A stretch of DNA of 64,000 nt from Xanthostigma xanthostigma (lineage: Eukaryota; Arthropoda; Insecta; Raphidioptera; Raphidiidae): positions 2,272,001-2,336,000 of the forward strand of contig OY754466.1 of the NCBI GenBank assembly GCA_963575645.1. The letters are read 5' to 3'. Below, piece by piece: positions 17,678-57,105 of the stretch. The translations under genes and the position numbers were made by a program. The notes under the pieces were generated by a model that saw nothing but the letters and a program-made list of their open reading frames with translations, was not told where the DNA came from and made no database searches. Position 1 is the first letter of the stretch; each line of letters opens with the position of its first letter.

Positions 17678-17784
17678 CTCAATACTGGAATGAAGAGGAA
17701 CAACGCCGTGATCTTGGGCGTAAACAGTCAACCAGTAATGGGACTTGGTCTCGATGTCCAAAACTGACAGTGTTCGAATGACAC
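17678..17784 (-). CDS. internal exon of a Fat-like cadherin
   Basis: A 107-bp exon on the minus strand. It is preceded by a pyrimidine-rich stretch and AG, and followed by a GTGAGT donor. After a two-base carry-over (GT) it encodes 35 residues with no stop. The segment includes [19 protein letters not shown] and then VVPLHSSIE. The [15 protein letters not shown] pattern is the middle of an extracellular cadherin repeat and closely resembles the [15 protein letters not shown] segment of Fat/Fat-like protocadherins. These are giant single-pass adhesion proteins acting in planar polarity and epithelial organisation. The exon ends in phase 0 inside the repeat, before the expected DxNDN calcium-binding motif, so the gene continues to lower coordinates, but I did not find the next exon. 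A family A element begins about 70 bp upstream and repeat-like DNA ends about 80 bp downstream. I am confident in the Fat-class cadherin call; the exact paralogue (Fat or kugelei) is inferred. Confidence 0.88.
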
Positions 17785-17854
17785 CTGAAAATAAAAAAAA
17801 AATACTAATTAGTTACGCTAAATTACATGTTTTAACTATATAGAAACTGGTAAA

Positions 17855-18067
17855 TAAAATTGGTTGCCTGTAAAGTCGGTTTACGGACGATAGTGTTACG
17901 TGATAACGTATTCCGCTCGAATATCATATTTAATAATACATAACCTAAATTTTAGTAGCTGTCAAACTATATTTTTACCGACTCTCTATCGCTTATACTG
18001 CGCTCTCGCTTGCACGCACAGGGTCAGGCGGAACGTGACACTTTTCGGAACGTTATCACGTCAAAAA
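17855..18067 (+). mobile_element. family A element, copy 5 (shortest)
   Basis: A 213-bp internally deleted copy with both family ends. It lies about 70 bp upstream (minus-strand sense) of the 17678-17784 exon, close to its acceptor and branch-point region, so it could have influenced splicing. Confidence 0.8.
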
Positions 18068-18127
18068 TAGGTTATGTTCATTCCATTGAACAAACTGAAG
18101 GAAAGGCTTTTATTAAATAAATTAAAG

Positions 18128-18718
18128 ACACAACCTGTGCGAATTATTCGCACTAAATAAGTATAATAATTATCACTTTACAAAATTATTTTTTAAATAT
18201 GATTGCAGGTATTCAATTCGTTTCTAATTTTGCACACTGCTTATAACGTTCTTCTTTTTGTTGTATTACAATATGAAGCTCAGATGACAGATCGAAGAAA
18301 TATTTTACTAAAATTGTCATATAGAGGCGCAAGTAGCAAAAGCGTTGAGCTAAGCCGTCAGATGGCATCATGCAGCATTGCTGTGACGTTGTTCAGCGTT
18401 GCTCGCTTTTCAAAATTAAAGCCGTCAGATGGAAGTATGCAGTATTGTGTCTGTTGTATTACAATATGAAGGTCAGATGACAGATCGAAGTGTTGGCGTT
18501 GTTTCAAAATTAAAGCCGTCAGATGGCAGACGTTGTTCAGCGTTGCTGTATTTTAATTAATTTACAAAAACAAAAGCAATAATACATTTTTTAGTTGACG
18601 ATGTCAGTAGAGCAAGAAATTATCTGTAAAATGATATATAATTTATGTGGAGAAATTGTGAGGTTTTTTCTAAAAAGGGAGGCAAACATCTTTAACCTTA
18701 GCGTATTAATATATATGA
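18128..18718 (-). mobile_element. Helitron family H1, copy 2
   Basis: Minus-strand copy. The 5' TC end is intact at 18717-18718 (followed by host T). The 3' hairpin GTGCGAATTATTCGCAC is present, but the terminal AGGTCACTCTAG is truncated at its left edge. Confidence 0.8.
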
Positions 18719-19702
18719 TGTCTTAAATTTTTTAAACTATTTAATAAAAAAATATTGTTGTATAGTTTCGTAACCCTTCTGAACCAAGTTGACCATGCTT
18801 TATTTACGATACAATCGATTTTTTTTAATTAAAAAATGTTGAAAACAAACTTCAAAGACGTTGGGTGTCCATGAGGTGGACGCAGTTTCGAAGTTTAATT
18901 AATCAAGTTCCAGGAAATTTAAAACATTCTTGTTGTCTCTCGGTAATATAGGCCACTTCTGTGGGAATGAGAAAAATGCCAATGATATTTGATATTATTC
19001 ATGCTTCAAAAAGCGCTCTTACACAATACACAGTTGTGACAGTCAATAATGCTCATAACTTCGAAAGTAAATTCAGGCATATCCGTGACACTTTTATATT
19101 TTCCAAAAAATTGAAAAAATAGAAGTTTTTCGATGTTTTCGCAAATCGGCGCCTTTTTGAGGCACTAAGAGCCTTCCGATGCGGTTAATATTATGTGTAC
19201 TTATGGAAAAAATCACGCTGAATCCAATGAGACCACCCGCAACGCTGTAATAAAAATTAGCGTGCCTAAAATACCTACCCTAAATCCGTCATCAGCTCTC
19301 ACCCTATTTGATATTATTAGCGGGCTGAGGTGTTTAACTGAATGGTATTTTATGAATTACTGTACTGTCCATGTGTGGACACTCATGCATTTGTGAATGG
19401 ATGTCGAATAACATGGATAAAATCGACGTTCTCCACTGTATTAAAACATCTCAAAACGTAAAAAGGCAGAAAATCGAATATCGGCCTGTTCGAGTACTTT
19501 TAATTACAATCGCAAACAACTTTTAAATTAATTTTTCTTTTATTCGGATTCTGCATAATTAAAATACGCGAGATTTATTATGCCTTTACAGCCATGCTCA
19601 CCACAGATTTGATCGGATCGACAAGAATGTAAATTAACTACGTTATTATAAATATTAATTCGTTATACCGAACGCGTGAAGGGGGGTACAATGCGCTGTT
19701 GG
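18719..19702. other. no gene; possible ancestral intron sequence
   Basis: No repeats shared with the rest of the window and no convincing coding region. It may be original intron DNA. Confidence 0.35.
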
Positions 19703-19710
19703 GTGTTGAC

Positions 19711-54466: not shown

Positions 54467-54828
54467 TCTATACTAATATATAAAGCTGAAGAGTTTGTTT
54501 GTTTGTTGGGTTGAACGCGCTAATCTCATGAACTACTGGTTCGAATTGAATTTTTTTTTTGGATAGGTAGTCCATTTATCGAGGAAGGCTATAGGCTATA
54601 TAATATCACGCTACGACCAATAGGAGTGGAGCATCAATGAAAAATGTTGCAAAATATAACTACTAAAAAATTTGTCCGTCCGACAAAAACTATTGAACGG
54701 TAACTCCGATCATCATGAAATTTGGACACAACATTCATCTCGGTAAACTAAGATAAACGTGCGTACTCATGTCCCTCCCTCCCCCATTCGTTCTTTTACA
54801 CCCGGGTGAAACCGGGCGGGACAGCTAG
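54467..54828 (+). mobile_element. Helitron family H2 without tRNA block
   Basis: A|TCTATACTAATATATAAAG ... CACCCGGGTGAAACCGGGCGGGACAGCTAG|T. Same ends as the tRNA-bearing copies, but the central segment is absent, giving a 362-bp form. Confidence 0.87.
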
Positions 54829-56058
54829 TATTTTATAAGTAAAATCGTCCGACATTGCGATCGCAGTATTACAAATACCTATGTAGTACCTACTTCATCA
54901 CACAGCTTAAGCCGATGGATCTAGAAGCATGAAATTTTGTACAGGAGTTCCTTATATAACGTAGGTGAGCACTAAGAACGGGTTTTTGAAAATTCGTTCC
55001 CTAAGGGGGTCAAATATTTAATCTATGAATTAAAAAATATCAAATGCCGGTGATACTAAATATTGCAGACAACTGATAAAGAGCTAACACAAATAATACT
55101 GTAATACGGTGGAGTCGAAGGCTCCACTACTGTTGTATAAAACAAATTAGAATATAGAATGATTACTTTATTGAAAACCAAACGAGGTACAATAGCGTCA
55201 TAAGTACATAAAATTAATTTTGACAGATTTGTCTTAATATTGCCCGCGGCAATCATATGGACAACAACAATTTCATTACTCTATGTTCATCTCAGTCGCG
55301 TGCGAATCCGCGGGTAGTGACTAGTAAAATATTAAAAAAATACAATCGTGTTACGGAGAACAATCACATATTTTTCAGATTCGATAGATAGATAGATAGA
55401 TAGAGTTTATTATTATAGACCTCTATATGAGGTATAAATTCGTCATACAAAAAATTACAATAAAATATGTGGTAACTTAGTCAACATATTTTTAAAAATT
55501 TTAAAATTAGTATCAATGTTATACTCAGACAGTTAGGCAAAACATCGCACCTAAGTGGTTGAAGCAGAAATAGATAGATAAATAAATAGAATATATATTA
55601 ATAGAATAATATATTAATTTGTCAAATTAAGTAGGTCAACGTTTTTCACGAATGTCATCCCATCCTTGGAGTTGGCAGGGGTGTTACATTTACATATATA
55701 TAGCTACATATGTAATCTAATATCCTGGCCGTATCGTATTGTATATAAGGTCGTGCATTTCAACGAAATTATATACCTTCCCTCCAAATCCGTATAATAA
55801 AAGCCCATTACAGATTTTATTCTTGCGTGAAATTTTATACGTTATTTCAATGACATTCACTTTTGTACATGCAGTTTTTCACTGTCAATTTACCGCTAAC
55901 AGCCCTGCGTAAACTGTTGAAAACAGTTGGCTATCTTATTTCTTTAAAACGGTTTACCAACCATTTAACTGTTACTGACGATAGAGAGAAGGAAACTGAT
56001 TCCCATCATTTTACATACAAAAAGTCATTTATTTTAACGAAATACAACACACAAAATA
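54829..56058. other. no gene; simple repeats
   Basis: A (GATA)n run lies at about 55384-55404. GAATCCGCGGGTAGTGACTAGT near 55305-55324 resembles a Helitron 3' end, but no matching start was found. Confidence 0.35.
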
Positions 56059-56495
56059 CAGTTTAAACTCTATATAGCGACATTCAAGGGACTGTGCACT
56101 TTGTGGCGTTATTGAGAGTTGTCGTTCAACAGAGAGAAAAAATTATCCGTTAATATTTTTTTACTATAATACTATAATATATAAAATTTACAACTGACCA
56201 ACTAAGAATATGATAACTTATCGATAAGCAACTGAGCGAAACACATATGAAAGATAATCCCAACAAACAAACAACGAATTTCTTAGGATCTTCGGTACGC
56301 ATGATGCCGACAACAAAGCAACAAAATAACAAACAAGTACCTACCTACTGTTTATTGTTTAATGATAACGTATTGTTGTCGTTATTTGAGTGTATCATTG
56401 TATGAGCAACAAGGTAAACCAACTAGAGTTAAGTAATTTCGACGTTTTAAGGAGTTTGTCGTTATATCGAGTGACGTTAAATGGAGTTTACACTG
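56059..56495. mobile_element. pogo/Tc1-type miniature element, family J, copy 2
   Basis: Ends CAGTTTAAACTCTATATAGCG and, reversed, CAGTGTAAACTCCATTTAACG, flanked by TA. The interior is the inverse of 28036-28457. A further right-end fragment of the family lies at 56600-56670. Confidence 0.85.
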
Positions 56496-56670
56496 TATAT
56501 TGTAAAATGATTTTGAAAAGAGGCGTGTAAATCAAGAAAATGAGAAGATCACGTTCTACAAAACTGCACGATTAGTGTTCCGTGTGTTCTATAGCCAAGG
56601 TAAACCAACTAGTGTTAGTAATAAAGGAGTTTATCGTTATATAGAGTGACGTTAAATGGAGTTTACACTG

Positions 56671-57047
56671 TACTGGCAACCCAGGTCCGGCTTCGTCCGG
56701 ATTTTTAGATTGTCTATTGACATAGTGCAGCGAACTTTCTTACAGGATATAGAGATATTTGCCCGGCGACGTTTTTTAAATTAAATTAATAATTAATAGA
56801 TAATTAAAAACAAAATTAAATTACTTCAGAAATTCTCATAGAATTCTGTCCCGTGTATTGGAGGCCTCAATACAAAAGTAACATGCTTTTATTTTCGAAA
56901 GCCCTCCCTATTTCTGTCCTCGGAGAGAGGGTCTGTCCCGTGTTCTGTACTATAAGTGTGTCAACGGGAGCCTTTTAGATGGCCCGGAAAGATAGACAGA
57001 CAGATGCTCAATAGGAAATTATACATGTAGTGATGTAGATAACTTAC
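56671..57047. other. retroelement-like remnant, unassigned
   Basis: CCAGGTCCGGCTTCGTCCGG and CGGGAGCCTTTTAGATGGCCC are the only distinctive pieces; possibly a non-LTR 3' region. Confidence 0.3.
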
Positions 57048-57105
57048 TGATTGAATTGTTTTCTTTTTGAAGCGATGAGAAGTTGTAATATTTTGCGTCA
57101 CTAAC
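57048..57105 (-). CDS. candidate 58-bp cadherin-gene exon
   Basis: A short candidate exon on the minus strand, with a T-rich tract plus CAG before it and a perfect GTAAGT donor after it. Read in phase 0 it gives VSDAKYYNFSSLQKENNSI plus one leftover base (A). That base joins the GT at the start of the exon at 17678-17784 to give Ser, continuing as [10 protein letters not shown]. So orientation, splice sites and phase all fit direct splicing, and KYYNFSS... could be the strand before the 'G-V-I-x-T' part of a cadherin repeat. The expected 'F-x-I-D-x-x-T-G' segment is poorly matched, and the piece is too short to identify alone. It could be a chance open frame with good splice signals. If real, the intron between the two exons is 39,263 bp. 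Confidence 0.52.

Follow-up and report, generated by a model that had tools for sequence, protein, structure and literature searches.

A putative 614-kb repeat-rich intron in a probable Fat-like cadherin gene of Xanthostigma xanthostigma

Introduction

To which gene does a lone 107-bp cadherin exon belong, and how far away is the exon that precedes it, when it is flanked on both sides by long repeat-rich tracts? This question is raised by a stretch of 64,000 bp from the genome of Xanthostigma xanthostigma (C3:2272001–2336000), hereafter called the window, to which all positions without a contig prefix refer. It forms part of the 54.7-Mb contig C3; the whole assembly has 28 contigs that add up to 623,323,696 bases. 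A sequence-only reading of the window had proposed that the exon at 17678–17784 encodes a segment of a Fat-class cadherin, that the window sits inside a giant adhesion gene, and that a repeat-rich intron of ~39 kb separates this exon from a partner at 57048–57105. Here, we place the exon in the context of its contig. The window very probably lies within a minus-strand Fat-like cadherin gene, in which a large exon is separated by a 614,622-bp intron from the 107-bp exon, and the latter by 42,323 bp of intron from an exon of 208 bp. The sequence, phase, order and strand of the three exons are read directly in the DNA, as are the assembled lengths of the introns and the repeats of the part that was read.

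Results

A single cadherin exon in the window

The minus-strand exon at 17678–17784 is flanked by an AG acceptor and a GT donor and codes for 35 residues of a cadherin. Its match to the Pfam Cadherin family (E 0.001, 19.9 bits) remains under the cut-off of 28.8 bits because the piece is short. A hidden Markov model (HMM) of the cadherin repeat, built from 18 repeats (17 out of PDB alignments and one from outside them), was run on 3,622 segments from the six-frame translation of the window. It matched the exon at E 1.2e-9, with the runner-up at E 8.1, and revealed no second cadherin segment among them. When splice sites were scored with approximate matrices, the acceptor of the exon ranked first among the 2,964 acceptors on the minus strand, and its donor first among the 3,640 donors. 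These DNA tests confirm that the exon is genuine and that it carries the canonical splice sites that had been claimed for it. Scans of the window for six cadherin motifs, as signs of a further cadherin exon, returned only three EN[SAV]P matches, all of them no more than 15 residues from a stop, and a second such exon was rejected. Taken alone, the exon is a cadherin exon and nothing more specific, as its 35 residues favour CELSR1 over FAT4. The Fat-like assignment therefore depends on the neighbouring exons.

Table 1. Features of the locus. Positions without a contig prefix are those of the window.
Feature	Position	Strand	Remarks
Internal exon, Fat-like cadherin gene	17678..17784	-	107 bp; entry phase 1 (split Gly codon completed), exit phase 0
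Upstream intron	C3:2289785-2904406; window share 17785..64000 (46,216 bp)	-	614,622 bp in assembly; both intron ends read
Downstream intron	C3:2247355-2289677; window share 1..17677 (17,677 bp)	-	42,323 bp, read throughout
Stretch around exon free of within-window dispersed repeats	17606..17843		238 bp; from window self-comparison; repeat blocks 17511-17605 and 17844-18055 on either side
Pseudo-exon, candidate of the sequence-only reading, outside the coding chain	57048..57105	-	no Pfam match; splice score at control level; two stops

Neighbouring exons probably encode a Fat-like cadherin

A genome-wide search with Pfam Cadherin listed 150 matches (150 of 202 candidates scored). On the minus strand of C3, these include seven at 2904345–2907290, one at 2247118–2247297 and 19 at 2078510–2116703, in order along the contig, while none of the 150 falls between C3:2247297 and 2904345. 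Being too short, the window exon does not appear among the matches listed.

The upstream exon runs from an ATG at C3:2907830 to C3:2904407, 568 kb past the right end of the window, and contains 3,424 coding bases, or 1,141 codons and one base. It scores 508 bits with Pfam Cadherin, over nine stretches. Its 3′ end reads GATAAAAAAG followed by GTAAGA; the last G before the donor completes the split Gly codon of the window exon, and the phases at C3:2904407 and C3:2289784 are compatible. On reading the sequence, we noticed that the start of this exon is hydrophobic (MEFTRPMLASFLVLASSIWALS), which makes it a candidate signal peptide. The downstream exon (C3:2247147–2247354, 208 bp) extends from TTTCCAG/ATCTATG to TCATCCG/GTGAGT and matches Pfam Cadherin at 35.2 bits. 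Joined together, the upstream, window and downstream exons yield 1,246 codons without a stop.

The joined protein is 43% identical to a provisional N-terminal sequence of human FAT1 (532 of 1,225 columns, 67 gap columns, query residues 33–1243), the sole protein with which it was compared at this length. The alignment to this provisional sequence spans both junctions and contains a one-residue gap a few residues ahead of the first. This supports the Fat-class identity that had been proposed from the 35 residues, and the cadherin exons on both sides of the window, on the minus strand of C3, very probably place it inside a giant adhesion gene as suggested. A genome search with the peptide encoded across the junctions, in which all 118 candidates were scored, gave 59 matches. 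Near-identity is confined to two of these, one in the downstream exon (96%) and one in the window exon (93%); the remaining 57 are at most 45% identical and include no second near-identical copy.

In the gene that we propose, the large exon (C3:2904407–2907830) would encode the N-terminal part of the protein with its first cadherin repeats, and the 208-bp exon would be followed by more cadherin exons and then by a laminin-G domain, in order, down to C3:2077064. A Laminin_G_2 match is found at C3:2077064–2077375 in a 717-codon frame, and the cadherin matches at 2078510–2079049 are listed in a frame of this length as well. Order and strand suggest that the exons below C3:2117000, those for cadherin repeats and that for laminin-G, are in the same transcript; if they belong to the gene, its extent is 830,767 bp or more. 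The exons are likely joined by ordinary GT–AG splicing, through exon definition.

Within ~40 bases 5′ of the ATG at C3:2907830 (in L009), the sequence contains TTGTTTGCAG, which resembles an acceptor, and a short upstream frame of three codons (ATG AGG TGA). These features make it probable that the gene has an untranslated exon further 5′, which would make the giant intron the first coding intron of the gene and not its first intron.

Size and content of the introns

The HMM was also run on the window together with the adjacent 170 kb, where the window exon was the only cadherin match at E up to 10. The contiguous 216 kb next to this exon contains no upstream cadherin exon.

Self-comparison of the window assigned 36% of it to repeats, a percentage that, like all those given here, is a lower bound for dispersed repeats. 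The repeat share was at least 34% for 1–17677, 37% for 17785–57047 and 39% for 57106–64000, showing that repeat density does not shift at the 57-kb position. In a self-comparison of 234 kb, repeats made up at least 49% of the sequence, with 46% for the window's intron share and 50% for the next 170 kb. The intron is thus repeat-rich, as had been claimed. Pfam was run on 47 open frames (37 in the window and 10 in the adjacent 170 kb) that were picked mainly by length, some of them downstream of the exon. One of the 47 exceeded its cut-off, a transposase frame in the giant intron (L028:3280–3819, minus strand; C3:2459280–2459819) with a DDE_Tnp_1_7 match at E 3.7e-11, which we take to be of the piggyBac type. 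Matches below the cut-off were found in 11 of the 37 window frames (two at E up to 10, and four plus five at E up to 1) and in five further frames of the adjacent 170 kb, the best being the internally repetitive L024:3593–4153 (E 6.1e-5). We infer from the repeats that the upstream intron was most likely enlarged as transposable elements accumulated by insertion.

Weighing the gene model against its alternatives

Several observations count against the gene model. The closest solved chain to the 35 residues of the window exon is CELSR1 (E 1.3e-8), and FAT4, the sole Fat entry among the matches listed for them, reaches only E 0.098. The N-terminus of human FAT1 used in the alignment is a provisional sequence with no database entry behind it, and the Cadherin search covered 150 of its 202 candidates. 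The part of the upstream intron that was examined amounts to 220,622 of 614,622 bp (36%), the remainder being the 394,000 bp of C3:2506001–2900000. Splicing of the exons in vivo is predicted from DNA, not from RNA. Finally, 614 kb far exceeds the 319,382 bp given in the cited passages for the longest annotated intron of the earwig, which has the larger genome (PMC9526046). The model also presumes that the remaining 394 kb holds no extra exon and that the assembly is correct between the exons.

The alternative that survives best, although we consider it improbable, is that an extra small exon, coding or alternative, is located in the remaining 394 kb and splits the 614,622 bp into two or more introns. 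This stretch is outside the part read, and short exons can escape detection: a fragment test recovered 93 of 164 fragments that were 15 residues long and, at a length of 20 residues, 143 of 157, values that are optimistic because close paralogues stayed in training. However, an extra coding exon would be an insertion, as the large exon and the window exon already complete one Gly codon between them and the provisional FAT1 sequence aligns there with a single one-residue gap. In addition, neither the candidates scored in the Cadherin search nor the junction-peptide search gave an intervening match.

An assembly error, by which the large exon and the window exon would truly be nearer to each other, appears more improbable still. 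Continuity over C3:2506001–2900000 is outside the part that was checked, which leaves room for such an error, but both exons are found on one 54.7-Mb contig, on one strand and in the correct order. There are no N bases in the 220,622 intron bases read, nor elsewhere in C3:2247001–2506000 (259 kb) and C3:2900001–2908500, and the contiguous 216 kb beside the window exon already lacks an upstream cadherin exon.

The weakest alternative, which takes 57048–57105 as the immediately preceding exon and puts the intron at ~39 kb, is barely credible: this candidate has an open frame, a good acceptor (sixth of 2,964) and the one leftover base that is needed, but its peptide has no Pfam match, its donor is mediocre (146th of 3,640), its combined splice score is at chance level, and placing it after the large exon produces stops. 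Upstream of the window exon, two phase-compatible pseudo-exons reach this combined score (the candidate and one other), compared with six on the whole plus strand, which served as control, or 4.3 when scaled. In its favour, it stands alone among the upstream pseudo-exons when both sites must each equal or beat its own. For the exon and one residue after it, the Cadherin profile gave 22.2 bits when the split codon was read as Gly and 20.9 bits when it was read as Ser, whereas placing the whole candidate peptide before the exon gave 22.0 bits. This means that the 19 extra residues are no better than one Gly. The candidate would introduce Ser at the split codon, where all 13 cadherin rows that reach the column have Gly (five of the 18 rows are short of it, one of the 13 is the row from outside the PDB alignments and some are close paralogues). 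Inserted between the true neighbours of the window exon, it creates two stops immediately and seven overall. We therefore rejected it as an exon.

In the gene model that we prefer, the residues ahead of the junction come from the upstream exon, which supplies GDGIGLFSIDKK and the first base of the Gly codon. In the alignment with the provisional FAT1 sequence, the GDGIGLFSIDKK region shows a one-residue gap and leaves no space for 19 more residues, so that, as far as this comparison reaches, the homologue lacks the residues encoded by 57048–57105. The intron limit that had been placed near 57 kb is abandoned together with the partner exon, given the 614,622 bp in the assembly, the position of the upstream exon and the unchanged repeat density on either side of that limit.

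The second pseudo-exon, at 33861–33952, has an equal combined score and is the sole one that ends in G. It overlaps the repeat block at 33895–34476 and was rejected; it is absent from the 40 best cadherin segments of the HMM scan.

Other repeats and small elements

Several further elements were seen in passing. On the minus strand, the adjoining frames 13995–14231 and 13805–14023 (together 13805–14231) presumably resemble a lysine-rich transposase tail of the pogo/Tigger type ending in CxxC; Pfam gave one unrelated weak match for 13995–14231. A 136-codon frame on the plus strand (8500–8907) has a weak, sub-cut-off zf-RVT match (E 0.049) and is perhaps the 3′ end of a non-LTR (long terminal repeat) retrotransposon, and a weak zf-RVT-like match (E 0.021) is also found at L028:6214–6930. 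Three copies of a DNA-transposon-like family (16425–16845, 19706–20234 and 22550–23091) have terminal inverted repeats that start with AGTGATGTGCCGGAT, and ATCCGT repeats in their interior.

A dispersed repeat of ~600 bp occurs in six copies (6623–7330, 18133–18729, 29037–29498, 30340–30938, 31935–32548 and 47540–48149), whose ungapped pieces are ~93–98% alike; two of the six are inverted relative to each other, at a distance of 1 kb. The one frame of this repeat that was tested had no protein match, and a search for a dispersed-repeat motif in viral contigs gave no matches. Two tandem arrays, both with 93% matches, are located at 58524–58871 (32-bp unit, 10.9 copies) and at 17040–17356 (26-bp unit, 12.1 copies), the latter ending ~320 bp from the exon. 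Lastly, an Rfam tRNA match on the minus strand (6288–6349) scored 30.2 bits against a gathering threshold of 29 bits, and ARAGORN predicted no gene; this may be a tRNA-derived repeat.

Discussion

The gene described here is most probably an ordinary Fat-like cadherin of the FAT1–3/kugelei type, and its notable feature is the size of its intron. If RNA confirms the splicing, this intron of a conserved polarity gene, on a contig of 54.7 Mb, would be about twice as long as any annotated for the earwig, whose genome is larger (PMC9526046). It would then offer a case outside the Drosophila Y chromosome for studying how cells transcribe and splice over 0.6 Mb of repeats. The locus also holds a warning for annotation, as a gene model based on local sequence would break here and either report two genes or accept a chance pseudo-exon.

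The first coding intron of Fat-like genes could be ancient, sharing codon and phase with human FAT1, and its retention and expansion to 614 kb could reflect a role of its length or contents in the gene, for example through a timing delay or enhancers. We regard this idea as unlikely. The junction Gly is residue 1089 in the provisional FAT1 sequence, which would place the split after c.3265. Human FAT1 exon 2 presumably ends at c.3265 as well, so that the intron position may be shared in codon and phase. Searches of paper text did not find the c.3265 exon boundary, nor any cadherin peptides. According to the cited passage, circFAT1 originates from FAT1 exon 2 (PMC6280518).

Like the gene proposed here, the Fat-like cadherins, comprising vertebrate FAT1–FAT3 and Drosophila kugelei/Fat2, have a large N-terminal exon of cadherin repeats and a cadherin array that is followed by laminin-G. 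On C3, this array corresponds to the 7, 1 and 19 minus-strand matches in order, among the 150 listed.

Gigantic introns are described, in the passages cited, for Drosophila Y-linked genes and also for three autosomal ones, namely Pzl, Myo81F and Mitf (PMC11207136, PMC6508621). As in the upstream intron found here, these are hundreds of kilobases long, repeat-rich and located between small exons. Unlike it, they are described there as containing satellite or other repeats as well as assembly gaps (PMC11207136, PMC6508621), whereas the repeats seen here are mainly dispersed and the part read is free of gaps. In other insects, the available passages report a mean intron length of 11.12 kb in the locust (PMC8011201), intron expansion in large insect genomes, as in the stick insect (PMC5691397), and a genome of 1.06 Gb for the earwig (PMC9526046). 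In all three, as here, intron growth accompanies repeat content. The upstream intron is ~1.9 times as long as the longest annotated in the earwig, in a genome ~0.6 times the size (PMC9526046). A 107-bp exon that has very strong splice sites and long introns on both sides fits the long-intron genes as portrayed in the passages from the locust study (PMC8011201). The intron is therefore a sizeable case of a phenomenon already described.

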